Source: Bifidobacterium scardovii JCM 12489 = DSM 13734 (GTDB lineage Bacteria > Actinomycetota > Actinomycetes > Actinomycetales > Bifidobacteriaceae). From it: DNA of 64,000 nt. Position 1 is the first letter of the stretch; each line of letters opens with the position of its first letter. The notes below the pieces were generated by a model. It searched no databases. It worked only from the letters and a program-made list of their open reading frames with translations, and was not told the origin of the DNA. Of the stretch, positions 33,986-46,162 are shown one piece after another. Position numbers and translations under genes: made by a program. The stretch is from contig NZ_AP012331.1 in the NCBI RefSeq assembly GCF_001042635.1, positions 1-64,000 of the forward strand. Reading direction: 5' to 3'.

Positions 33986-34097
33986 TGCGAGTTGTCGGTG
34001 CGCGAGTGTGAAGCAACGCTGTTTTAGAACGTTCAATATGGCCATTAAGGCTATGGACAACCGGTTTCACTACTTGGCGTCGCACCGACAACTCGCA
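33986..34097. repeat. Inverted-repeat element (17-bp perfect arms)
   Basis: Arms 33986-34002 and 34081-34097 are exact reverse complements over 17 bp, enclosing 78 bp with no ORF. The inside holds a small GGCCATTAAGGCT near-palindrome. It lies between gnd and mscL and may be a terminator-like RNA structure or a tiny mobile element remnant. Confidence 0.7.
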
Positions 34098-34200
34098 GTT
34101 ATGCAGCACGGCACCCCATCGTAGGGGGTCGAAGTATCGTGCGGTGCGCTGATACGCTTGATACGTCGGCCATAATCGCAAACCCGATAAAGGAGACGGC

Positions 34201-34647
34201 ATGATCGACGGTTTCAAGAAGTTCATTTCCCGCGGCAATGTGATCGATATGGCGGTAGGCGTCGTCATGGGCGCGGCGGTCACCGCCGTGGTCAATTCGA
34301 TCGTGGACAACCTCATCAACCCGCTGATCGCGATGATCTTCGGCAAGCCCAATATGGACGGGCTGCTCGCATTCACCTTCAACGGGGCCACGGTGTCGTT
34401 CGGCGCGATTCTCGGGGCTCTGCTCAACTTCCTGATCATTGCGGTGGCCGTGTACTTCGTGATCCTCGTGCCGATCAACAAGTTCCGGGACATGTCCGAG
34501 GCGCTGCTCGTCAAGACCAAGCTCAAGGAATCAGACGACGCCGGGGCGGAAGAGGCGCAAAAACCCGAGTTGTCCCCCGAACAGCAGACGGTGCTGCTGC
34601 TCCAGGAGATCCGCGATCAGCTGGCTGAGGCGAATCCGCACCAGTGA
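34201..34647 (+). CDS. mscL: Large-conductance mechanosensitive channel MscL
   Basis: A 148-residue membrane channel that opens on osmotic downshock. It has the conserved start MIDGFKKFISRGNVIDMAVG, two transmembrane helices (about 16-43 and 67-95) and a charged C-terminal helix, ending ELSPEQQTVLLLQEIRDQL. AAAGGAG precedes the ATG. It is a single gene; the tRNA genes downstream are on the other strand. Confidence 0.96.
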   Translation: MIDGFKKFISRGNVIDMAVGVVMGAAVTAVVNSIVDNLINPLIAMIFGKPNMDGLLAFTFNGATVSFGAILGALLNFLIIAVAVYFVILVPINKFRDMSEALLVKTKLKESDDAGAEEAQKPELSPEQQTVLLLQEIRDQLAEANPHQ

Positions 34648-34724
34648 CCGGCGTACGCAGTGAGGGTCCGCGGTTCAGGCACATCCGGTGTAACGTGCAA
34701 CAGAGCGCCACAGGCATCCGAATA

Positions 34725-34758
34725 AGCAAAAACCCTTGAAAACGCTGTTTTCAAGGGT
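34725..34758 (-). terminator. Terminator of the tRNA pair
   Basis: On the minus strand, stem ACCCTTGAAAAC / GTTTTCAAGGGT with a three-base loop is followed by TTTTTGC. It lies just downstream of tRNA-Ala. Confidence 0.85.
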
Positions 34759-34764
34759 GATCCG

Positions 34765-34837
34765 TGGAGCATGCCGGGTTCGAACCGGCGACCCTCTGCT
34801 TGCAAAGCAGATGCGCTACCAGCTGCGCCAATGCCCC
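34765..34837 (-). tRNA. tRNA-Ala (TGC)
   Basis: 73-nt cloverleaf on the minus strand: acceptor GGGGCAT / ATGCTCC, D-arm GGCGCAGCTGGTAGCGC, anticodon TGC in the CTTTGCAAA loop, T-arm GGTTCGAACC. The terminal CCA is not encoded. It follows tRNA-Ile by 55 bp. Confidence 0.96.
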
Positions 34838-34892
34838 GAATTCATTTATCTGAGAAAAAAAGAGCGGCCCAAGTAGCCGCTGAATTTTCCTG

Positions 34893-34966
34893 TGGGCCCG
34901 GGAGGACTTGAACCTCCGACCTCATCCTTATCAGGGATGCGCTCTAACCACCTGAGCTACGGGCCC
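34893..34966 (-). tRNA. tRNA-Ile (GAT)
   Basis: 74-nt cloverleaf on the minus strand: acceptor GGGCCCG / CGGGCCC, D-arm GCTCAGGTGGTTAGAGC, anticodon GAT in CTGATAA, T-arm with GGTTCAAGTCC. CCA is not encoded. It is the upstream member of an Ile-Ala tRNA pair outside any rRNA operon. Confidence 0.96.
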
Positions 34967-35178
34967 GATCCATACGCTTCAAAAGCGCACAAGTAGCTAT
35001 AGTACCCGTATCCTCGCATATGTCAACTTGAATGTGCATATTCGTGCTTCGGCGTGTCGCGAGAAGTGCCACATAGGGGGGCGTGCATGCGAATATGGCG
35101 CGACGGGCCTTGCGATAAGACGGGCTTGCTCGGCTGGAAATGCGCCCGTCAGGGGCCACGGGCTGCCGTGATGAGACA

Positions 35179-35898
35179 ATGGCCCCTATGACCCATCGTC
35201 CCCTGCCCCGTCCCTATGATCTGTCCATCGACGGCCTGACGGTCACGATCGCGCACAAGCCCATCAAAAACCTGTACCTGCGCGTCAAGCCCCCGTATGG
35301 CAATGTTGAGATTTCCGCGCCCCTGCGCATGAGCGAAGAACGCATCCTCGGGTTTGTCAGGGAACGCCGGTCATGGATACTGCGGCAACGCCAGCGCATG
35401 GAAGATGCCCTCCACCGCAGCGTCGATTCCCTTCAGCAGGCCGGTGGCGCCCCTGCTACGGAGGAAAACTCGCGGGGGCACGGGCAGTCCGGATCCGGCG
35501 ATCGGCGCCCGCTGGAGGGTCCGGCGAACCCGGCTCCGGTCTTCGACCGTTCGGCGGTCTGGACCGAGGAGCGCAAGCGGCAGGCCGGAGAGGCGATCGA
35601 TGCGGCGCTGCCGTCGCTGCTGGCCGCCTGGGGGCCGGTTATCGGACGCACGCCAACGCATGTCACGCTTCGGCTGATGACGTCGCGTTGGGGGTCATGC
35701 ACGCCCAGAACCGGCCGTATCCGGCTCAATCTGCAATTGGGATTGATGGAACCGAGGTTTCTGGAATATGTGCTGGTCCACGAGATGACCCATCTGTGGG
35801 TCGGCGGCCACGGTGCCGAGTTTCAGCGCCGTATGAGCGCGTACCTGCCGAACTGGCGGCAACTGCGGCGGGAGCTCAACCGGCGCGTGGTGCTGTGA
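35179..35898 (+). CDS. YgjP/DUF45-family putative zinc metallopeptidase
   Basis: A 239-residue protein of the YgjP-like (M48-related, DUF45) family. The N-terminal part has the family segment KNLYLRVKPPYGNVEISAPL, and the C-terminal part the metal site HEMTHLWVGGHGAEF (HExxH with a third His). SRWGSCTPRTGRIRLN is another hallmark. A variable Gly/Pro-rich insertion lies at about residues 85-125. No signal peptide is present. The exact role of the family is unknown. The start is uncertain: ATG 35179 or 35188, both with weak ribosome sites. Confidence 0.85.
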   Translation: MAPMTHRPLPRPYDLSIDGLTVTIAHKPIKNLYLRVKPPYGNVEISAPLRMSEERILGFVRERRSWILRQRQRMEDALHRSVDSLQQAGGAPATEENSRGHGQSGSGDRRPLEGPANPAPVFDRSAVWTEERKRQAGEAIDAALPSLLAAWGPVIGRTPTHVTLRLMTSRWGSCTPRTGRIRLNLQLGLMEPRFLEYVLVHEMTHLWVGGHGAEFQRRMSAYLPNWRQLRRELNRRVVL

Positions 35899-35940
35899 GG
35901 CTTTGCCGCGGGATGACAGTATCTCGCGCTTCTGCTTGAC

Positions 35941-35986
35941 TCCCCTCAGACCGCTTCGCGGCCAGCTCCCCTCAGGGAGGGGAGCC
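35941..35986. repeat. Dispersed palindromic intergenic repeat, copy C
   Basis: TCCCCTCAGACCGCTTCGCG followed by GCTCCCCTCAGGGAGGGGAGCC, in the gap after the YgjP-like gene. Confidence 0.8.
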
Positions 35987-36178
35987 AGACACGGTAATCA
36001 GGGCACTGGCGGCAGGTATAACCAGCGTCGATGACGGGCCCCGCGCGCCGGATACGCCCTACGCGTAGGCTGCATGGTAACCGTGCGCAACCCGTATGAT
36101 GGTCGCATCCGATCAGCGGATCGGCGCGGCGGTCAGCTGTCGCATACGACGAATTACGACGAATACGGAAGGGGTGAC

Positions 36179-37840
36179 ATGTTCACTCGTGGACTCATGA
36201 AGAAGACGATCGCCGGCGTGGCCGCGATCCTCGCCGCAGGATTGGTGTTGGCGGGCTGTGGCGCCGGCGGCGCCAATGGCACGGCCGATACGGCGGGTGA
36301 ATCGGGCTCATCCTCGAAGTCGGTGGTCACGGTCAACAACGTCGAGCCGGCGGCAGGGCTGATTCCCTCCAACACGAACGATATGGCCGGATGGAAGGTC
36401 GTCACGCAGCTGTTCGAAGGCCTGGTGACGTTCAGCGACACCGGCGAACTGGTCTACGCGGATGCGAAGTCGATCACGCCGAACGACGATGCATCGCAGT
36501 ACACGATCACGCTGCGCAGCGGGTTGAAGTTCTCCAACGGCGAGAAGATCACCGCGCAGACCTATGCGAAGTCCTGGTCCTTCGCGGCCAACGCGGCTAA
36601 CGGCCAGATGGGCGCCGCGATCTTCGCGACGATCAAGGGATACGACGGCCTGCAGGACGAGCACGGCGACAAGGACGCCCAGCTCTCCGGTCTGGAAGCG
36701 GTGAACGACACGACGCTCAAGGTCACGCTTGCCGCTCCGGACTCGTCCTTCGCCTACAAGGTCGGCGACGTGGCGTTCCTGCCGCTGCCGGACGAGGCCT
36801 ACAAGGACATCGACCAGTTCGGCGAGCAGCCGATCGGCAACGGCCCGTACAAGCTCGATAGCTGGCAGCACGATCATTCGATCAAGCTGGTGCCGAATCC
36901 CGAATACGACGGGCCGAGGAAAGCCAAGAACGCCGGCGTGACGTACACGCTGTACACGAACCTCGATTCGGCGTACGCGGATCTGGTGGCCGGCAACCTC
37001 GACGTGCTGGATTCGATCCCGAGTTCGGCGTTGGTCACCTATCGCGGCGAGAAGGCCATCCAGCCGTTCAGCAAGGCCGGTCCGGGATTCAAGTCGTTCA
37101 CCATACCGCAGAATCTCAAGCACTTTACGGGCGAGGAGGGGCGTCTGCGCCGCGCGGCCATCTCCATGGCCATCAACAGAAACAACATCGTGGAGAAGGT
37201 GCTGCGCGGCACGGCCACCGCCGCCACCGATTTCACCGCGCCGGTCATCGCCGGGTACGCGAAGGATCTGGACAAGGACGGCGTGCTCGGGTACAGCGCC
37301 GATCAGGCCAAGCAGCTGTGGGCGCAGGCCGATGCGATCAATCCGTGGGACGGCACGTTCCGTCTGGCGTACAGCACGGACAGCGGCAGCAAGCAGTGGG
37401 TGGACGCGATCGTCAACTCGATCAAGAACGTGCTCGGGATCGATGCGCAGTCGTATCCGTTCCCCACGCAGAAGGACTTCAGCGGGGCCGTGCATGACCG
37501 CACGATCGATGCCGCGTTCGTACAGGGGCTGCAGTCCGATTATCCGCATCCCGAAGGTTATCTGGTGCAGGCGTACGACTCGTCGGCGGCTGACGGCAAG
37601 GGCCTGAACAACGGCGATTACAAGAGCGGCGAGTTCGACGCCCTGATCGACCAGGCCGCTAGGCAGACCACGTTGGACGGTGCCGTGGAATACTACCATC
37701 AGGCCGAACAGGTGCTGCTGAAGGATCTGCCGGTGATCCCGCTGTGGTACGGCAACGTGACGGCCGCCGCCGGCAAGCAGGTCAAGAACGTGAGCTTCAA
37801 CTACATGGGTCTGCCCGAGTACCAGAACCTGACGAAATAG
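36179..37840 (+). CDS. Peptide ABC transporter substrate-binding lipoprotein (OppA-like)
   Basis: A 553-residue family-5 solute-binding protein with signal peptide and lipobox LAGC. The domain begins VVTVNNVEPAAGLIPSNTND and has the family's GLKFSNGEKITAQTYAKSW and FGEQPIGNGPYKLDSW blocks. It probably binds oligopeptides at the cell surface. No permease or ATPase genes lie nearby, so it is an orphan receptor using a transporter encoded elsewhere. ATG 36179 is preceded by GGAAGGGG; ATG 36197 is possible. Confidence 0.92.
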   Translation: MFTRGLMKKTIAGVAAILAAGLVLAGCGAGGANGTADTAGESGSSSKSVVTVNNVEPAAGLIPSNTNDMAGWKVVTQLFEGLVTFSDTGELVYADAKSITPNDDASQYTITLRSGLKFSNGEKITAQTYAKSWSFAANAANGQMGAAIFATIKGYDGLQDEHGDKDAQLSGLEAVNDTTLKVTLAAPDSSFAYKVGDVAFLPLPDEAYKDIDQFGEQPIGNGPYKLDSWQHDHSIKLVPNPEYDGPRKAKNAGVTYTLYTNLDSAYADLVAGNLDVLDSIPSSALVTYRGEKAIQPFSKAGPGFKSFTIPQNLKHFTGEEGRLRRAAISMAINRNNIVEKVLRGTATAATDFTAPVIAGYAKDLDKDGVLGYSADQAKQLWAQADAINPWDGTFRLAYSTDSGSKQWVDAIVNSIKNVLGIDAQSYPFPTQKDFSGAVHDRTIDAAFVQGLQSDYPHPEGYLVQAYDSSAADGKGLNNGDYKSGEFDALIDQAARQTTLDGAVEYYHQAEQVLLKDLPVIPLWYGNVTAAAGKQVKNVSFNYMGLPEYQNLTK

Positions 37841-37983
37841 TGGCGATCCGCGCCGGCGCTCTCGCTGCCCGGCGCGGGCGTGCTGTCGGCATGTGCCGGC
37901 CCCGAGCCGTTTGGGGCCGACACATACGAAATGGTTCCACCGAGTTATCGGAATTATGCCGGTATCTCGGTCTGATCTATTAC

Positions 37984-39297
37984 CTATTCATTGCTGAATA
38001 TGCCGGCCATGTATATGGGCAGGTAAGTTATGCGGTCTTCAACTGAAACGTTGCACGGGCCAAATACGAATCCATTGCTGAGGTGATATTCGGTGTGCGC
38101 AAGCACGTTGTTCATTGCGCGATGACGTTTATAGGATTTCCCGGATTTGACCTCGATGGGCAGCACGGTATCGTTACGGTCCTGAATCAGAAAATCAAGC
38201 TCACCGAGTTTTTTGCTGTTGTAGTAATACAGGTTGAACCCATGGGCGTGCAATTCCTGGGCCACTGCGTTCTCATAGATTGATCCGTAATTGATATCCG
38301 GGTTGCCATCGAGCACGTCCAGTGCGGTTTTTTTGAGGAACGATCCGGTCAACAAGCCGACGTCGTTATAGAAAAGCTTGAAGAGATTGCGCTCCTTGCT
38401 CATTTCCAATGGAGTGCACGGCTCGTCTACGTTATATGCGGCGATGGCAACATCCGCGCTGACCAGCCAGTCGAAATCGGCGGCGACTGATTGGAATCGC
38501 ATGTTCTTCTCGATCTTGGCAAAAGTAAATCTCTTGTTCGGATTGTTGAGCTCACTGGGCACCAAATTGTAAATACCGCGGATATGCAGTCGGTCTTCCC
38601 TGCGGGCGTACTGGCTGATATCGCGGCGATATTCGCGCTTGATGTTCTCTTGAATGACGCGTACGTCCGCCACGCTATTGTTTGCCGCGAAAGAGTCGAC
38701 TGCGGCGGGCATGCCGCCGATGACCAGATACTTGGCATACAGCTCCATGAGCTGCTGGTGAATGAAGCCGTCCACTGCCTGTTGCTCGGTGAGACACGCG
38801 GAAAGCATGTCGAACACATCGTCGCCGATATGCTGCGACCAGCAAAACTCTTGAAAATCCAACGGATGCATGTTCAGTTCGGTCAGATAGCCGACGGGCA
38901 CGGAACGTATGTCCTCCAGTTCGACGCCAAGCAGCGACCCGGAAAGCGCATAATCGAAGCGGCCATCGTCCACAAGAAATTTGATGGCGGTGACCAGCTC
39001 CTTGCACCGCTGGACTTCATCGAAGAAGATCAGCGTCTTGCCTGGTACCAGCGGGGTATTTACCGCCAGCTCCAGGCGCATTAATAAGTTCTTCACGTCG
39101 CGCGGATGATCGAACAGTGTGACCAGATCTGGATTCTCGATGAAGTTCAGTTCAGCGACATGATCGTAATGCCGCTGGGCGAAATGTCTGATGATATAGG
39201 TCTTGCCGGTCTGTCTGGCGCCGGTGACCAGCACGGCGGTGCGTTTCGGTGCGGACGCCCAAGATTCGAGCTTTGCTTCGATTTTTCTCCGCAGCAT
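37984..39297 (-). CDS. AAA-family ATPase with DUF4143 domain
   Basis: A 437-residue P-loop ATPase: Walker A TGARQTGKTYIIRHF (about residues 26-40), Walker B LIFFDEVQRC (about 91-100), an ATPase lid region, and a C-terminal DUF4143 domain with a nuclease-like fold (LGELDFLIQDRNDTVLPIEVKSGKSYKRH, of which DFLI and PIEVKSGK resemble a PD-(D/E)xK core). Members of this family are common in gut bacteria, often in several copies, and have no firm function. ATG 39297 follows TTGGAG. Its GC is lower than its neighbours, suggesting transfer. Four regularly spaced direct repeats lie upstream. Confidence 0.9.
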   Translation of the reverse strand: MLRRKIEAKLESWASAPKRTAVLVTGARQTGKTYIIRHFAQRHYDHVAELNFIENPDLVTLFDHPRDVKNLLMRLELAVNTPLVPGKTLIFFDEVQRCKELVTAIKFLVDDGRFDYALSGSLLGVELEDIRSVPVGYLTELNMHPLDFQEFCWSQHIGDDVFDMLSACLTEQQAVDGFIHQQLMELYAKYLVIGGMPAAVDSFAANNSVADVRVIQENIKREYRRDISQYARREDRLHIRGIYNLVPSELNNPNKRFTFAKIEKNMRFQSVAADFDWLVSADVAIAAYNVDEPCTPLEMSKERNLFKLFYNDVGLLTGSFLKKTALDVLDGNPDINYGSIYENAVAQELHAHGFNLYYYNSKKLGELDFLIQDRNDTVLPIEVKSGKSYKRHRAMNNVLAHTEYHLSNGFVFGPCNVSVEDRITYLPIYMAGIFSNE

Positions 39298-39338
39298 GGC
39301 AAACTCCAATCACGAGAAGGCCTCATCTCTTATATGAC

Positions 39339-39452
39339 TACATTTTCCAACCACTGGTAGACTGATATTTTACACTTTTCTAACCATAAAATCATGTTTT
39401 TCTTACGTTTTCCAACCTGAATAGAAGTTGTTTCATACACTTTTCCAACTTG
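39339..39452 (-). repeat. Four direct repeats (iteron-like) upstream of the DUF4143 ATPase
   Basis: Plus-strand copies TACATTTTCCAACC (39339), TACACTTTTCTAACC (39371), TACGTTTTCCAACC (39404) and TACACTTTTCCAAC (39436). Start-to-start spacing is 32, 33 and 32 bp, about three helical turns, so all copies face the same side of the DNA. In the orientation of the ATPase gene the core is GTTGGAAAA. The nearest copy is about 42 bp before the ATG. Confidence 0.85.
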
Positions 39453-39724
39453 TAGGACGGAAGGGCGGTGTTTCGGTCTTATGGCATCGGCATCGACCTC
39501 GGGGACGTGCCTCGATTACGGCGGTGTTTTGTAATAGGCGGTCCCCGCATGGCTTGGCGTGCCGCGTGTCACACGGGATTCGACGCTTGCGGATGACAGG
39601 TGACTCTCGATTGAGCAAGCGGCTCGCCGAACCGTTTTTTCCTGAGCGGGAAGGAATACTGCCACTGCCGTATAAGTCTTACTGCTCCTAAATAATAAAC
39701 GTATAGGGTATTTTGGGGAATAAG

Positions 39725-39775
39725 TTGACAAATAGAATAAGCATGTGTTATGGTTTTCGTATACTAAACGATTAG
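39725..39775 (+). promoter_or_regulatory. Promoter and operator of the LacI-type gene at 39790
   Basis: TTGACA (39725-39730), 17-bp spacer, TTATGG (39748-39753), followed by the operator-like CTAAACGATTAG (39764-39775). A related TAAACGTATAG lies at 39696-39706 and a perfect TAAACGTTTA at 40899-40908, so the regulator probably controls itself and the kinase operon. Confidence 0.75.
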
Positions 39776-39789
39776 CAAAGGAGCATATC

Positions 39790-40845
39790 GTGGTTTCGAG
39801 ACCGACATTGAAGGACGTGGGTGCAGCCGCCGGCGTATCCGTGTATGTCGCGTCCCGCGCCCTCCGGGGGGAGAGCGGGGTGGCGCAATCCACCCGGGCC
39901 CGCGTGCTCGAGGCGGCATCGCAACTGGGCTACGTGCGTAATGAGATGGCTGCCAGTCTGAAGATGAAGTCCAGTCACACGGTGGGCATTCTCACTGCCT
40001 CCGGCCGCAACCAGTATTACTCAATGCTTGCTCAGGCAATCGATAACACATTGCACGAGTACGGCTATTTCGCCGTCACCACGGACATGATCAAGGACCG
40101 CACCAATACGCAGGAATCCGAAGGTGAGTCCGTGCGCCTGCTGCTTGAACAGCGCCCGGCGGCCATCATCGCCACCTATGCGCTGCGTCCCGAATCGCTG
40201 GAGATCATCGAATCCATGCGCATCCCGGTGGTGTTCGTGGATTCCCCGCCCGCCAAAGCCGGCGTCTATCCTTTCGTCGGCAGCGATAACTATCAGGCGG
40301 GCCGCTTGGCCGGTGATTACTTGGGGCGGCTTGGGCACAAGCATGCCATGATTCTTGCTTTCCCGAAAACCTGGCAGACCTTTGAAGCCCGCGTACGCGG
40401 ATTCAAGGATGCGGCCAAAGAATGGGACATGGATGTTCAGGTGCGTGAAACTCAGGGTAATGATCCCGAGTCGGCATATATCGAGCTTGGCGATCTGCTT
40501 GGTAACCATGCCAAAGCGCAATGGCCGGACGCCGTGTTTGCGCTCAATACGATGATGGTGCTCGGCGCTTTCCGGGCCATGAAGGAACGGAATGTAGCGA
40601 TCGGGCAGGATGTCTCCCTGATCGCCATTGACGACTTTGATTGGGCTCCGATGCTGGATCCACCGCTGACCGTGATTGCGCAGAATATGGAGGAAATCGG
40701 CCGCCAGGCCGGGCGCTTCGTGGTCGACGCGATCAAGGGAAATTCTTTGAATGGACAGCAGCTGACGATTGCCGTGAAGCTGATTGAACGGGAATCGTGC
40801 CGCGACCGCAATCTCCCTTTGGCTGAGAGGGGGAGAAACCAGTAG
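39790..40845 (+). CDS. LacI-family transcriptional regulator of the anhydro-sugar kinase locus
   Basis: A 351-residue LacI/GalR regulator. The helix-turn-helix reads PTLKDVGAAAGVSVYVASRALR, and the C-terminal sensor domain follows. It starts at GTG 39790 with AAAGGAG six bases upstream; the ORF extends upstream but only through its promoter. It lies directly before an AnmK-like kinase and a ribose-type ABC importer, each downstream of a TAAACG palindrome, and is the obvious candidate for their local regulator. Confidence 0.91.
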   Translation: MVSRPTLKDVGAAAGVSVYVASRALRGESGVAQSTRARVLEAASQLGYVRNEMAASLKMKSSHTVGILTASGRNQYYSMLAQAIDNTLHEYGYFAVTTDMIKDRTNTQESEGESVRLLLEQRPAAIIATYALRPESLEIIESMRIPVVFVDSPPAKAGVYPFVGSDNYQAGRLAGDYLGRLGHKHAMILAFPKTWQTFEARVRGFKDAAKEWDMDVQVRETQGNDPESAYIELGDLLGNHAKAQWPDAVFALNTMMVLGAFRAMKERNVAIGQDVSLIAIDDFDWAPMLDPPLTVIAQNMEEIGRQAGRFVVDAIKGNSLNGQQLTIAVKLIERESCRDRNLPLAERGRNQ

Positions 40846-40898
40846 CAATAATGGGTTTTCGGGCCCCTGCTTCGGGTCCATTTTTAATAACTTAAAAA

Positions 40899-40909
40899 TA
40901 AACGTTTAG
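40899..40909 (+). promoter_or_regulatory. Operator-like palindrome before the anmK-like gene
   Basis: TAAACGTTTAG with the perfect ten-base palindrome TAAACGTTTA, 110 bp upstream of the kinase ATG. It matches the sites at 39696 and 39764. Confidence 0.7.
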
Positions 40910-41019
40910 CATACAGGATGCCAAACGAGTCAATGGATTGTCGTCGAGATGATCCAGTCAGTACACATCAACCAAATTTCATCCCAATAAAAATTCACAT
41001 CAGAGCAAAGGAGCTTCCC

Positions 41020-42234
41020 ATGCCATACGCAATCGGTCTCAACAGCGGTTCTTCCTTCGATGGCGTTGACGCCGTCCTCATCGAAATCAACCAGGCCGAA
41101 GACGGCAGCGTGCTGCCGCCCAAGTACATTGACGCCCTGTCCATCGATTGGCCCGAGGACATCCAGAAGGAAGTGCTTGCCGCCTTTGACGACACCCTTG
41201 GCATATTCAAGCTGACCCGCCTCAACTACGTGTGCGGCGCTGTGTTCGCGCAAGCGGCCACCGAACTCATGAAGAAGCACAACCTGACCGGTACGGACAT
41301 CGACGTCATCGGTTATGACGGCCAGACCATCTATCAGGAGCCGCCGGAGCACGCGCAGATGCAGAAGTACACCGCCGACAAGCCGTTCTATGAGATGTGG
41401 ACCAAGTACGGCTATCCGTGCGGTCTGCAGATCGGTGAACCCGGCGTGGTTTCCGTACTTACCGATGCTCCGGTCGTCACCCAGTTCCGCAGCGTCGACC
41501 ACACTCTGCAAGGTACGGGTGCCCCGTTGATGCAGTACTTCGACTATGTGCTGTTCCGCAATGTCGGCCCCACCGCCACGCTGAACATCGGCGGCATCTC
41601 CAACCTGCACCTTGCGTGCGCTGACCGTTCAAAGATGCGCGCTTTCGACTGCGGCCCCGGCAACGTGATGATCGACCAGGCCATGCGCGTGCTGTACGGC
41701 AAGGAATACGATGCCAACGGTGAAACCGCGGCTCGCGGTACCATCTATCAGCCGATGCTCGATGAAATGCTGGAACATCCGTTCTTCAAGCGTGAAATCC
41801 CGCGTTGCGCCTGGCGTCTGGACTTCGGCGCCGAATACACGCAGCAGATGCTCGACAAGTACGCCGAACTGAGCAACGAGGACAAGCTTGCCACCATCAC
41901 CGCGTTCACCGCCGAAGCCATCGTCCGCGCCTTCAACGAGTTCGTGGTGCCGGCGGGGCTGGGCGTGAACCGACTGATTGCCAGCGGCGGCGGCGTGCGC
42001 AATGACACCCTGATGAAGATGATCGCCGAGCGTTTGCCGGAAGGCGTCGCTCTGGAGACCTCGGATGCCATCGGTGTGCCTCCGCAGTACAAGGAAGCCA
42101 TCAAGTTCGCCACCATCGCGTTCTCCACCAAGCGCAGCATCGCCGACAATATTCCGGCCGCCTGCGGCGCCGTCAAGTTCGGTATTCTCGGCAAGCTTGT
42201 GCTGCCGCCGAGCCAGGCCAAGCTGACTGACTGA
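41020..42234 (+). CDS. AnmK-family anhydro-sugar kinase
   Basis: A 404-residue kinase of the AnmK family. Known members cleave the 1,6-anhydro bond of anhydro-N-acetylmuramic acid while phosphorylating it, or phosphorylate levoglucosan in fungi. The ATP-site NSGSSFDGVD (8-17), NIGGISNL, the catalytic-Asp motif FDCGPGN (Asp210) and SGGGVRNDTL are present. Typical bacterial AnmK reads MSGTSLDG at the first motif; this one reads NSGSSFDG, closer to levoglucosan-kinase-like members as I recall them. ATG 41020 has AAAGGAG upstream. No murQ or nagA homologue is nearby, so the natural substrate is open. Confidence 0.88.
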   Translation: MPYAIGLNSGSSFDGVDAVLIEINQAEDGSVLPPKYIDALSIDWPEDIQKEVLAAFDDTLGIFKLTRLNYVCGAVFAQAATELMKKHNLTGTDIDVIGYDGQTIYQEPPEHAQMQKYTADKPFYEMWTKYGYPCGLQIGEPGVVSVLTDAPVVTQFRSVDHTLQGTGAPLMQYFDYVLFRNVGPTATLNIGGISNLHLACADRSKMRAFDCGPGNVMIDQAMRVLYGKEYDANGETAARGTIYQPMLDEMLEHPFFKREIPRCAWRLDFGAEYTQQMLDKYAELSNEDKLATITAFTAEAIVRAFNEFVVPAGLGVNRLIASGGGVRNDTLMKMIAERLPEGVALETSDAIGVPPQYKEAIKFATIAFSTKRSIADNIPAACGAVKFGILGKLVLPPSQAKLTD

Positions 42235-42357
42235 TTTCCTGATCCTCTTACTGAGAATCCTCGTGTGAGTGAGGCGCGTGGAGCTGGTCTTGCATTCGAT
42301 CGCTCTGCGCGCCCATACCCACGCCATACCCTACAGGTACAACGTTTTGGAGTAACC

Positions 42358-43878
42358 ATGACAGAATCGGCATCGCAGGAGCGACTGCTGTTGGAAGCGA
42401 AGGGCATCACCAAGCGCTTCCCCGGCGTCCTCGCCCTCAGTGGCGTCTCGCTGGGCATCCGGCCTGGCGAGGTTCACGCCTTGATGGGAGAGAACGGCGC
42501 CGGCAAATCCACTCTGATGAAGATCATCGGAGGCATTTATCAGCCCGACGGCGGCGAACTGCTGCTCAACGGCGAACCCTACACGCCCAAAGGTCCCGCC
42601 GATGCACAAAGCAAAGGCGTCAGCCTTATTCATCAGGAGCTTAACCTTGTTCCCGATCTGACCGTGGCACAGAACATCTTCCTCGGCCGTGAGCCCATGG
42701 GTGCAGGCAAGGCGCTGCTGAGTGAAGACAAGGCCGTGAAGAAGGCCACGGAACTGTTGCATCGTATCGGTGTCACATTCGACGCCCGCACCCTTGTGCG
42801 CGATCTGCCTGTGGCCAGCCAGCAGATGGTGGAAATCGCCAAAGCCATTTCCTTTGACTCTCAGCTGCTGGTGATGGACGAGCCGACGGCGGCTCTGACC
42901 GACCGAGAAGTCGATGCCCTGTTCGCGTTGATTCGCGACTTCGTCTCCCCAACCACGGCGGTGATCTACATCTCGCATCGTATGGAAGAGCTTATGCAGA
43001 TTTCCGACCGTATCACGGTGTTCCGCGATGGTCGTTTTGTGCAGGAGCTTGCCACTGAGCAGACCAGCCGTGACGAAATAGTTCGCCTTATGGTCGGCCG
43101 CAAAATCACCGCCTATGACAGGCCCGAAAAAACGCGTGATGCCCAGGCGGCGCCCACCTTGGAGGTGCGGCACGTCACCAACGCCATGGTCAAGGATGCG
43201 TCATTCAGCGTGTACCCCGGCGAGATCCTCGGATTCGGTGGACTGGCCGGTGCCGGACGGACCGAGCTGGCCCGCGCCATTATCGGCGCCGATCCGAAGT
43301 CCTCCGGTGAAATCATCGTGGAAGGCAAGTCGGTGACGATTCGCCGTCCGTCCGACGCCGTGGACGCCGGCATCGCCTACCTGTCCGAGGATCGTAAGCA
43401 GTATGGCCTGGTCCTTGACAAAACCATCAACGACAATGTCGCTCTTGCCTCGCTGAAAAACTTCACCGACAGAATCGGACTGATCAAGGATGGCAGCATC
43501 GCCAAAACCGCGAAAAACTACATCGACGCGTTAAGTATCAAGACTCCCAGCGCCATGCAGCAGGTCAAGAACCTTTCCGGCGGCAACCAGCAAAAGGTCG
43601 TCATTGCGAAATGGCTGGCTCGAGACAGCAAGGTGCTGATCTTTGACGAGCCTACTCGAGGCATCGATGTGGGCGCCAAGCAGGAGATCTACACACTGCT
43701 CGATCAGCTCGTGCAGGAGGGCCATTGCGTGGTGGTCATCTCTTCTGAGCTGGAAGAGCTGATTCGCGTATCCGACCGAATTCTCGTGATGTGCAACGGC
43801 ACTATCACCGGCGAACTGAGCCACAAGGAAGCGACTCAGGAACGCATTATGGAGCTTGCCACTACATTCCGCAAATAG
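42358..43878 (+). CDS. Ribose-type sugar ABC transporter ATP-binding protein (CUT2, RbsA/MglA-like)
   Basis: A 506-residue protein with two fused nucleotide-binding domains, as in all CUT2 ATPases. The first has Walker A GENGAGKST (44-52) and a Walker B ending MDEPTAAL; the second has a degenerate Walker A (FGGLAGAGRTELARA), the signature LSGGNQQKV and Walker B FDEPTRGID. It powers the permease encoded next. ATG 42358 follows TTGGAG. It is in the same direction as the kinase, 123 bp downstream. The combination with an AnmK-like kinase suggests import of an anhydro or other monosaccharide. Confidence 0.95.
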   Translation: MTESASQERLLLEAKGITKRFPGVLALSGVSLGIRPGEVHALMGENGAGKSTLMKIIGGIYQPDGGELLLNGEPYTPKGPADAQSKGVSLIHQELNLVPDLTVAQNIFLGREPMGAGKALLSEDKAVKKATELLHRIGVTFDARTLVRDLPVASQQMVEIAKAISFDSQLLVMDEPTAALTDREVDALFALIRDFVSPTTAVIYISHRMEELMQISDRITVFRDGRFVQELATEQTSRDEIVRLMVGRKITAYDRPEKTRDAQAAPTLEVRHVTNAMVKDASFSVYPGEILGFGGLAGAGRTELARAIIGADPKSSGEIIVEGKSVTIRRPSDAVDAGIAYLSEDRKQYGLVLDKTINDNVALASLKNFTDRIGLIKDGSIAKTAKNYIDALSIKTPSAMQQVKNLSGGNQQKVVIAKWLARDSKVLIFDEPTRGIDVGAKQEIYTLLDQLVQEGHCVVVISSELEELIRVSDRILVMCNGTITGELSHKEATQERIMELATTFRK

Positions 43879-43974
43879 CTTACGCGGCGCAGGGTGCGCC
43901 CATCCCGCCTTCCTTCCTCTTCCTCCTTTCTTTTCCATTATCCTCTCCCGTCCCCTTACACCAAAGGATTCATT

Positions 43975-44985
43975 ATGTCCAACGACGCACAGGCCGTGAA
44001 CTCGCCGGTGAAGAAGCCGACGTTGCTCCGCCACTTCTCATCCTCCTCGCTGCAGCAGCTGCTCATTTTCGGTACATGGATCGTGCTGCTGATCGGTTTC
44101 TCCATCGCTGATCCGCACTTCATGCGTATGGGCAATATCGTGGCGTTGCTGCTTGCCTCCGCGGTCACCGGTATTCAGGCACTTGGCGTCACCTTCGCCA
44201 TTGCTACCGGCGGCATTGATATCACGCCTGGTCTGGGTATGGCCATGACCGGTGTCATCACTGCGCTATGCATGGTCACATTCCACCTGCCGATCTGGCT
44301 GGCGGTTACTGTCGGCATCCTATCCGGTGCGGTGCTTGGCTGGATCAACGGTCTGCTCATCGCAGGCTTCAATATGCAGCCGATGATTGCCACTCTGGCC
44401 ATGATGCTGGTGGCCCAGGGCGCGGCTCTGGTGCTGTCCGGATCCAAGCCGGTGTACACCACCGACGAAGTCGGGTTCGACCAGATTGCCCGTGGCACCC
44501 AGCTGTTCGGCATTCCGAACGCCGTGTGGATTTTCCTGGTGCTTGCCATCATCTCGTGGGTCATCCTCAACAAGACCCGCCTTGGCCGTTACGCGCTGTC
44601 CATGGGTTCCAACGAGGAAGCCACGCGCATGTCCGGCGTGAACGTCCGCCGTTGGAAGTGGGCCATCTATGTGCTCGCCGGTTCGTATACGGGCTTGTCC
44701 GGTGTGGTGATGACCTCTCGACTGAGCGCCGCGCAGCCGGCTACCGGTTCCGGCTATGAGATGTATGCCATCGCTGCGGCCGTGATCGGTGGCGCATCCC
44801 TGGCTGGTGGCCGTGCGTCCATTGTCGGCACCGTGATTGGCGCACTGATCATCACCACTATCAACAATGGCCTGCAGATCCTGTCCGTGCCCGATCCGTG
44901 GCAGAAGATCTTCCTCGGCATCGTGGTGATCGCCGCTGTGCTGGTTGATCTGTATCGCCAGCACAACCAGAAGAAAGTGAAGTAA
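43975..44985 (+). CDS. Ribose-type sugar ABC transporter permease (CUT2, RbsC-like)
   Basis: A 336-residue inner-membrane permease with about eight to ten hydrophobic segments. The CUT2 hallmark AAAVIGGASLAGGRASIVGT is visible near residues 270-288, and GNIVALLLASAVTGIQALGVT near the first segments. ATG 43975 follows AAAGGA. It lies between the ATPase and binding-protein genes in one transcription unit. Confidence 0.95.
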   Translation: MSNDAQAVNSPVKKPTLLRHFSSSSLQQLLIFGTWIVLLIGFSIADPHFMRMGNIVALLLASAVTGIQALGVTFAIATGGIDITPGLGMAMTGVITALCMVTFHLPIWLAVTVGILSGAVLGWINGLLIAGFNMQPMIATLAMMLVAQGAALVLSGSKPVYTTDEVGFDQIARGTQLFGIPNAVWIFLVLAIISWVILNKTRLGRYALSMGSNEEATRMSGVNVRRWKWAIYVLAGSYTGLSGVVMTSRLSAAQPATGSGYEMYAIAAAVIGGASLAGGRASIVGTVIGALIITTINNGLQILSVPDPWQKIFLGIVVIAAVLVDLYRQHNQKKVK

Positions 44986-45187
44986 CTGGCCGTTGATCGG
45001 CGGAGGCTCGGCAAGCCGTCTCTCTTTCCTGGCGGCTTGCCGGCCCGACCCGGCTTCTTTCCGCACAGCTGTTTCACGGGCTGTTTCATGACTTGAGTTC
45101 ATAACTGCATATCCATAACTACATATGGTTCAGTGGCATTGCGCTGCTGATACCAACCATTACATCCCTTCTTGAAAGGAAACTTCA

Positions 45188-46162
45188 ATGATGAAGAAGA
45201 ATAAGGCATTCGCTGCCATCGCTGTTGCCGCACTGTCGCTTATGCCGCTCGCCGCATGCGGATCTGGTTCCGGTGCCGGCGGATATGAGATCGCCATGGT
45301 GGCCAAGGGCTTTAGCCAGAGCTTCTGGGTGTCTGTCCACAAGGGGGCCGATGACGCCGCCTCGAAGTATGGCGCCACGGTCACGTTCAACGGCCCCGAC
45401 AACGATAGCCAGGTCGATAAGCAGGCCGAAATGGTGCAGAACGCGATTAACAAGTCCCCTGATGCGGTGGCGGTCGCTCCACTGGACGAGGCTGCGCTCA
45501 CTCCGGCTCTGCAGAGCGCCAAGAGCGCGAACATTCCGTTGTTCGCCTTCGACACCGCTTTCGATAAGAACGCGGATCTCATCACCGCCTCGGTGAAGAC
45601 CAGCAACACGGAGGTCGGCAAGGTTGCTGCCGAGAACTTCATCAAACTGCTCGGAGGCAAGGGCAAGTATGCGGTTATCGCACACAGCCAGACCGATGCC
45701 ACTTCCACTGAGCGTCGTGATGGATTCCTCGACTATATGAAGGAAAATGCGCCCGACATGGAAATGGTTGGCGATGTGCAGTACAGCAACGCCGATCAGG
45801 CCAAGGCTCAGGATATTGCCAGCGCCATTCTGCAGGCGAACCCTGATCTGGACGGTATTTTCACCACCAATGAGGCGACTGTTGTGGGTGCCGCGACGCC
45901 GGTGGAATCCGCGAAGAAGTCCGGTCATGACGTGGTGCTTGTCGGCGTTGACTCGGGTAAGGCGCAGCAGCAGTACATTCGTGATGGAGTGATCGCCGGT
46001 TCGGTTTCTCAGAATCCATACCAAATTGGCTATAAGACCATCGAGGTCGCCGTGAAGAGTCTCAAGGGTGAGAAGGTCGATAAGTCCATCGACTCTGGCT
46101 GCTTCTGGTACGATGCGAGCAACATTGATGACGCCGATGTGCAGCAAGCCATGTATGACTGA
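45188..46162 (+). CDS. Ribose-type sugar-binding lipoprotein (RbsB-like)
   Basis: A 324-residue periplasmic-binding-protein type 1 receptor, lipid-anchored through the lipobox LAAC after MMKKNKAFAAIAVAALSLM. The mature part opens YEIAMVAKGFSQSFWVSVHKG, and later has IFTTNEATVVGAATPVESAKK and LVGVDSGKAQQQYIRDG. It is the surface receptor for the importer at 42358-44985. GAAAGGA precedes the ATG. Ligand unknown; the kinase in the operon suggests a 1,6-anhydro-sugar. Confidence 0.94.
   Translation: MMKKNKAFAAIAVAALSLMPLAACGSGSGAGGYEIAMVAKGFSQSFWVSVHKGADDAASKYGATVTFNGPDNDSQVDKQAEMVQNAINKSPDAVAVAPLDEAALTPALQSAKSANIPLFAFDTAFDKNADLITASVKTSNTEVGKVAAENFIKLLGGKGKYAVIAHSQTDATSTERRDGFLDYMKENAPDMEMVGDVQYSNADQAKAQDIASAILQANPDLDGIFTTNEATVVGAATPVESAKKSGHDVVLVGVDSGKAQQQYIRDGVIAGSVSQNPYQIGYKTIEVAVKSLKGEKVDKSIDSGCFWYDASNIDDADVQQAMYD

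Follow-up and report, generated by a model that had tools for sequence, protein, structure and literature searches.

Periodic direct repeats with clade-specific spacing upstream of DUF4143 (PDC-S01) ATPase/nuclease genes: proposed operators in Bifidobacterium and other lineages

Plasmid iterons are evenly spaced direct repeats located beside the gene of the Rep initiator that reads them. The Orc1/Cdc6 and DnaA initiators also use head-to-tail boxes. The archaeal ATPases 2qen and 2fna, NLR/CED-4 and Avs5 are taken here to belong to the STAND class, and we know of no protein of these types with a clade-coded array. The DUF4143 family falls within COG1373. The nearest regulatory parallel found in print is RptR, a separate small repressor reported to bind three direct repeats within the promoter of a defence island (PMC12255303). 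According to a 2026 paper, the defence candidate PDC-S01 ranks fourth among the commonest prokaryotic defences, with 29,494 counted in bacteria and 9,986 in archaea, and validation is pending for most phage-defence candidates of the PDC type (PMC12988326). In the excerpted text of two papers naming PDC-S01, its antiviral activity has the status of a candidate and no repeat array is mentioned. Arrays are likewise not reported in the excerpted open-access PubMed Central literature on DUF4143, PDC-S01, COG1373 and repeats or iterons.

The stretch analysed here (the window) comprises positions 1 to 64,000 of the Bifidobacterium scardovii JCM 12489 = DSM 13734 contig NZ_AP012331.1. It includes, on the minus strand, an AAA_14 + DUF4143 ATPase/nuclease gene (37984..39297) coding for 437 aa from the ATG. 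Residues are numbered from this ATG at 39297; the list of open reading frames starts the frame at an in-frame TTG, 39309. The AAA_14 domain (profile match, 38842..39243, minus strand) and the DUF4143 domain score 93.8 and 117.5 bits, above their curated cut-offs. Among 38 aligned sequences, window protein included, the Walker A (G26, G31, K32) and Walker B (D93, E94) residues are invariant, as are the PD-(D/E)XK-type residues E342, E366, D368, E382 and K384 of the nuclease-like region (residues ~338-427; 38017..38286, minus strand). The excerpted text of PMC12988326 also assigns this nuclease class to PDC-S01. The DUF4143 family had been described in the sequence-only reading as having no firm role. 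This was incomplete: PADLOC names the family as the single-gene phage-defence candidate PDC-S01 (PDLC04792), and the window protein matches it over nearly its full length (residues 5-440 of 441, E 4e-199). PDC-S01 is also matched by seven further array-bearing relatives, hand-chosen from both period classes described below.

The closest named relatives of the window protein are from Bifidobacterium, with 77-80% identity, and a PDB sequence search with it gave no match. Its predicted model consists of an AAA/STAND part, a winged helix and a nuclease, and has the STAND-type ATPase fold with winged helix by which STAND NTPases are recognized. The winged-helix region (residues ~233-310; 38368..38601, minus strand), delimited by the secondary structure of the model, is the proposed DNA reader. 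The nearest structures are the archaeal ATPases 2qen and 2fna, although their alignments omit the nuclease of the window protein, and NLR/CED-4 and a helical Avs5 structure are among the fold neighbours. With Foldseek, Orc1/Cdc6-DNA structures come first. Orc1/Cdc6 and DnaA (2v1u, 2qby, 2hcb) are among the top matches and resemble the window protein in combining an AAA part with a DNA-binding domain; however, the query TM-scores are low (0.25-0.31), the window protein has a nuclease domain instead, and nothing ties DUF4143 genes to replication.

The gene is preceded by four direct repeats. The sequence-only reading had placed them at 39339, 39371, 39404 and 39436 with steps of 32, 33 and 32 bp, about 42 bp before the start of the AAA/DUF4143 gene on the minus strand, and both statements were confirmed. 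On the minus strand, from the distal to the proximal end, the repeats are GTTGGAAAAGTGTA (39436..39449; plus-strand reading TACACTTTTCCAAC), GTTGGAAAACGTA (39404..39416; TACGTTTTCCAAC), GTTAGAAAAGTGTA (39371..39384; TACACTTTTCTAAC), which has one change in two other genomes, and GTTGGAAAATGTA (39339..39351; TACATTTTCCAAC), which lies 42 bp upstream of the ATG (39297). The likely ribosome-binding site, as read from the sequence, is a GGAG at 39304..39307 (minus strand). The iteron-like array as a whole (39339..39449, minus strand), the proposed operator of the downstream DUF4143 gene, has a mean period of 32.5 bp, because the start steps are 32, 33 and 32 from the TAC end and 33, 32 and 33 from the GTT end. 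Its word on the gene strand is GTTRGAAAA(N)BGTA. The word first proposed, TACnTTTTCYAAC, was right in its four copies but not in its fixed spacer; the gap between TAC and TTTTC is 1 base in two copies and 2 bases in two, so that the corrected word is TACN{1,2}TTTTCYAAC.

Within this genome the word is unique to the locus. In the 3,158,347-base genome GTTRGAAAAN{0,1}BGTA has four matches, all in the window array, with none for the reversed control; the spaced word pair occurs three times genome-wide, again all in the array, and the gapped form of the word has two matches in the window against 0.00 expected. By eye, the corresponding upstream regions of two other genomes retain the words with few changes, and their spacers have diverged. 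A consensus sigma-70 promoter was not found on the gene strand in 39270-39800. Rfam gave no match up to E 1 in 39250-39800, and a structured RNA or riboswitch was rejected on this ground. A CRISPR array was rejected as well, given variable words of 13-14 bp about 19 bp apart and no cas-like gene seen by eye among the open reading frames of 34000-46000.

At least three evenly spaced direct repeats lie beside a gene with a predicted DNA-binding domain, which is the layout of an iteron array. The likeness to plasmid iterons drawn earlier is accordingly sound for the layout, with even direct repeats beside the gene of the presumed binder, but it does not extend to function: there is no sign of an origin and there are no Rep family matches. 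The locus further differs from plasmid iterons in being chromosomal, in the several unlike paralogues per genome, in the PD-(D/E)XK-type nuclease and in two periods fixed by clade. A plasmid replication origin was rejected, the genome being a single 3.16 Mb contig with nine DUF4143 genes and no Rep family matches, and BLAST of the window upstream region against plasmids gave no match. Under the strict score, four of these nine genes have an array of at least three copies (one of 23 bp, three of 32-34 bp), and a fifth has a weaker 33-bp array; by eye, two of the remaining four show apparent two-copy versions and two are without an array. One paralogue in the same genome carries a 34-bp GTTTTCGTG array.

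The spaced word pair was found in 14 of 112 Bifidobacterium genomes, and the reversed-pattern control matched two. Nine of the 14 have it before an intact DUF4143 gene, in the orientation of the gene. The other five have it beside a DUF4143 remnant (one genome), before a zincin-like metallopeptidase gene (two) or, as two copies, at neither (two). Repeats at loci lacking the gene had been named beforehand as an observation against the association, and this applies in part, nine of the 14 genomes having an intact gene at the repeats. The expectation that GTTGGAAAA words at 32-33 bp spacing would recur upstream of DUF4143 genes was borne out in Bifidobacterium, Bacteroidales and a Victivallales MAG. 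Among 32 named relatives scanned, 23 scored at least 18 with steps of 32-33 bp, and the other nine had two copies or none. The positives include Bacteroidales, the Victivallales MAG, an Eggerthellaceae MAG and Bacilli MAGs, and two Collinsella are among the negatives. In a second, shorter DUF4143 branch, arrays with a 22-23 bp step were found. The distribution of DUF4143 itself is patchy: it was found in 94 of the 112 genus genomes, in at least 1 to 29 copies each. The highest number in the genus sample, at least 29 matches with 29 of 49 candidates scored, was seen in a 1.9 Mb, 74% complete genome (G056).

A survey was performed on 247 DUF4143 proteins in an HMM-defined set, with an array called at a fixed score of at least 16. 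The set was derived from 281 open reading frames by removal of 13 without the N-terminus, 1 without the C-terminus, 5 at contig edges and 15 identical ones; it retains a few near-duplicates, such as the L003 gene, which is read a second time in truncated form within L009. The family samples are non-archaeal, and the Bifidobacterium loci are not random, being the strongest family matches among those listed and a further hand-picked part. A periodic upstream array of at least three copies in one of two period bands was found for 148 of the 247 proteins, at 31-34.5 bp (~32.5 bp) in 79 and 21-24 bp (~23 bp) in 69. A further 9 had a different period, near twice 23 (45-46 bp) in four of them, and 90 proteins had no array by this score. 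Single steps are sharply distributed, with 23 bp in 215 of 239 steps of the short class, and 33 bp in 103 and 32 bp in 92 of 204 steps of the long class. The median distance from the last repeat to the ATG is 50-57 bp.

The same score was reached in none of 186 coding parts of the same genes (273 loci minus 73 without a matching frame, 1 at an edge and 13 identical) and in 7 of 409 flanks. Among the upstream regions of 470 other open reading frames, 26 reached it, 13 of them in the two bands, and the printed words identify 11 of these 13 as DUF4143 arrays read from a neighbour. The difference between DUF4143 genes and other frames has a Fisher's test value of 2.6e-69, which is descriptive because the genes are related by descent. 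Chance was rejected with shuffles, reversed-pattern controls and the coding, flank and other-gene controls.

The period, about 23 or about 33 bp, is a clade trait, while the word varies. On the tree of the 148 proteins a minimum of three period changes is required. The one at L259 was judged by eye to be spurious (a GC-rich 24-bp repeat), and L274 and L285, from genomes of other phyla, are apparently real exceptions in which 33-bp arrays are nested in the 23-bp branch. The period was then predicted from the nearest classed protein for a further set of 66 genes. They came from plasmids, from viral contigs and from one draw each around the Victivallales MAG and the Bacilli MAG, and 10 duplicates, 7 edge and 3 partial genes had been dropped. 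Arrays were found in 17 of the 66, in every case with the period that had been predicted (long in 12, short in 5), and none in 49. For the 39 previously unscanned genes there were 8 arrays, all as predicted; the other 27, from viral and plasmid loci, had been scanned earlier in the analysis and gave 9. No array was found in 19 of 20 short-type genes of the Victivallales MAG draw, in 9 of 10 long-type genes of the Bacilli MAG draw, or in any of 8 short-type plasmid genes. The array is thus frequent in the sampled Bifidobacterium genes and several gut lineages and scarce in other draws. It is neither universal in the DUF4143 family nor essential to it, as indicated by the 90 of 247 and 49 of 66 genes without one.

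Several individual loci may be recorded here. On putative phage contigs from a viral collection, 8 of 17 DUF4143 genes have a 33-34 bp array (L301, L302, L307, L311, L315, L317, L319 and L320). A viral scan for the GTTGGAAAA pair returned 39 stretches. By a loose test three of them contain at least three copies, and a match to the window protein was found in none. Upstream of L071 there are 14 copies of a 23-bp unit, their printed 14-base words identical as if recently expanded, and upstream of L160 there are nine copies of a 23-bp unit. The long-type genes L109 (G031) and L110 (G042) have no array; ACGTCCTTATT is present once, together with an inverted copy, around a TATAAT hexamer. In a relative, L183, CGTCCTTATT is repeated directly with a 32-bp step.

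Like the period, the word tracks the protein. In the orientation of the gene, word similarity correlates with protein identity, r being 0.69 for the 69 genes of the 23 class and 0.67 for the 79 genes of the 33 class, against 0.12 and -0.02 in the reverse complement; part of this correlation among close orthologues is shared ancestry. In a count restricted to genes whose genome handle is known, a word is shared by 85% of the 227 between-genome pairs with identity above 60%, and by 1% of 1121 pairs at or below 45%. Paralogues within a genome share it in 7% of 29 pairs with a mean identity of 42%, and so differ about as their identity predicts. Two Bacteroidales genes at ~50% protein identity carry GTTGGAAAAGTGTA, as in the window. 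Words are more conserved than spacers (0.80 vs 0.53 in the 23 class and 0.82 vs 0.37 in the 33 class, 150 pairs each), the word figure being inflated by an offset fitted on the word. The winged helix did not stand out in co-variation, whether regional or by single column (partial correlations at most 0.22). Weak peaks were observed in the winged helix at residues ~278-297 for class 33 and ~201-237 for class 23. Class 23 has a further peak, also weak, in its AAA part (residues ~99-131), and the top single columns are scattered, some of them in the nuclease.

Two other genomes (G015 and G044), whose proteins are 88-89% identical to the window protein, resemble the window at the DNA level over 37996-39451. 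Within the compared stretch this similarity takes in the gene and its array and goes no further, ending at the distal end of the array. The neighbours of the window gene, of LacI type and oligopeptide-binding type, were not found in the fetched stretches of these genomes. This restricted similarity links array and gene, and it would allow for the two having been transferred together. Together with the upstream test it upholds the assignment of the window array to the DUF4143 gene made in the earlier reading. The gene and array at 37996-39451 look as if moving or inserted as a unit, with different neighbours.

Arrays were also seen apart from an intact gene. In L016 (G031, ~1468-1542) and L019 (G054, ~1500-1608) GTTGGAAAATGTGCA/GTGGCA words form an array with a 32-33 bp step in front of a gene for a zincin-like metallopeptidase (PF06262), with 72 bp from the start of the last word to the ATG. 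A long-type DUF4143 gene was found in neither fetched stretch; L016 has a DUF4143 gene of the 23 class further along. These arrays are possible orphan operators or sites of regulation in trans. In L023 (G097, ~1436-1851) an array with mismatched words is followed by a remnant that matches residues 359-437 of the window protein at 71%. L015 (G024) has two GTTGGAAAACGTAA words 32 bp apart at 1500-1541 between apparent cysteine-synthase and ABC-transporter frames, and its fetched stretch gave no DUF4143 match. The flanks of L079 (G031) and L082 (G042) likewise contain a flagged array with a 32-33 bp step.

It is fairly probable that the array is a cognate operator, to which the ATPase would bind head-to-tail through its winged helix and so regulate its own gene. 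The spacing follows the family branch while the word changes, which suggests that the protein grips and controls its own gene. The operator reading draws on the association of array and gene, the clade-bound period, the tracking of the word with the protein, the orientation, the conservation of words over spacers and the genome-wide uniqueness, and also on the span of gene-plus-array similarity, the place before the ATG and the winged-helix fold. Against it stand the array-less members, the scattered co-variation, the missing consensus promoter and the arrays without a neighbouring gene. On balance the comparisons favour binding by the product of the DUF4143 gene itself, for which control of expression would be the most economical role of the array. 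The encoded ATPase would read the repeated word through its winged-helix domain, and protomers or dimers would load head-to-tail, one per repeat, at a spacing set by the protein subfamily (~23 or ~32.5 bp). The assembly would cover the region upstream of the start codon and repress or tune expression of its own gene, until phage infection or another trigger relieves the repression and the nuclease acts. From these sequence patterns we infer self-binding, cooperativity, transcriptional regulation and infection-linked relief.

The geometry of such an assembly was reconsidered. The even spacing had been read as placing one protein on one face of the helix, and strict phasing of this kind was not borne out: at 10.5 bp per turn, 32.5 bp corresponds to 3.10 turns, about +34 degrees per step, and the 23-bp sister group to 2.19 turns, +69 degrees per step. 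Neither period is a whole number of helical turns, so that protomers arranged head-to-tail along a helix are a better fit than a single flat face. The RptR system is similar in its direct repeats before defence genes, which a repressor reads (PMC12255303). It differs in that RptR is a small stand-alone regulator whose minimal site is a palindrome of 6 bp, whereas the reader proposed here is the ATPase-nuclease itself.

Other explanations account for part of the same evidence. The array may be a working part of a defence machine and not, or not only, an operator; it would then be a polymerisation platform on which an inactive or primed ATPase-nuclease is held, to be counted or released on invasion. 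The spacing fixed per clade, the many copies in some arrays (14 in L071, 9 in L160) and the presence of NLR/CED-4 and helical Avs5 among the fold neighbours are in line with this, but it appears unlikely, as the arrays lie near the start codon (median 50-57 bp), where an operator is expected, and many family members have none. That another host DNA-binding protein reads the arrays is distinctly improbable, considering that word and protein go together both inside the genus and, at ~50% identity, across phyla. The gene's own binding is a prediction and co-variation does not pinpoint the winged helix, and helix-turn-helix or other regulator genes lie in several of 12 plasmid neighbourhoods; no one kind of regulator recurs beside the DUF4143 gene in these 12, however, not all of which are array-bearing. 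A dedicated small repressor on three direct repeats has a reported precedent in RptR (PMC12255303).

The array may instead be a recombination or target site; gene and array would then be selfish or mobile as a unit, and the repeats would be where its nuclease acts. Such a unit is compatible with the patchy distribution (94 of 112 genus genomes), with the array beside the remnant gene in L023 and the orphan arrays, and with the similarity to two genomes that stops at the gene and array ends, where the window neighbours were not found. It is nevertheless highly doubtful: an intact nuclease beside its own uncut site would be self-destructive, and the place and orientation of the array before the start codon are set. 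Chance or neutral tandem repeats (VNTR) would be conceivable for the few near-perfect tandem arrays such as L071, but two sharp clade-bound periods and conserved words between diverged spacers leave this explanation next to no probability.

An extension of the operator reading, speculative and rather unlikely, is that PDC-S01 is a self-addressing ATPase-nuclease, each array-bearing paralogue forming a helical filament on a private DNA ladder, which besides controlling expression would store the nuclease in a silent, counted state and trigger the response when disturbed. If this were true, a ladder with clade-fixed spacing and a co-evolving word would be a structural part of a candidate defence that ranks among the commonest. 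Through a DNA element that accompanies it and whose spacing can be read from the protein clade, PDC-S01 gains a concrete handle: a ligand is predicted for each array-bearing protein, the geometry of the oligomer is predicted as well, and self-regulation can be tested simply. Array-bearing loci become annotatable, the specificity of paralogues becomes testable, and the orphan arrays may be used to study regulation in trans.
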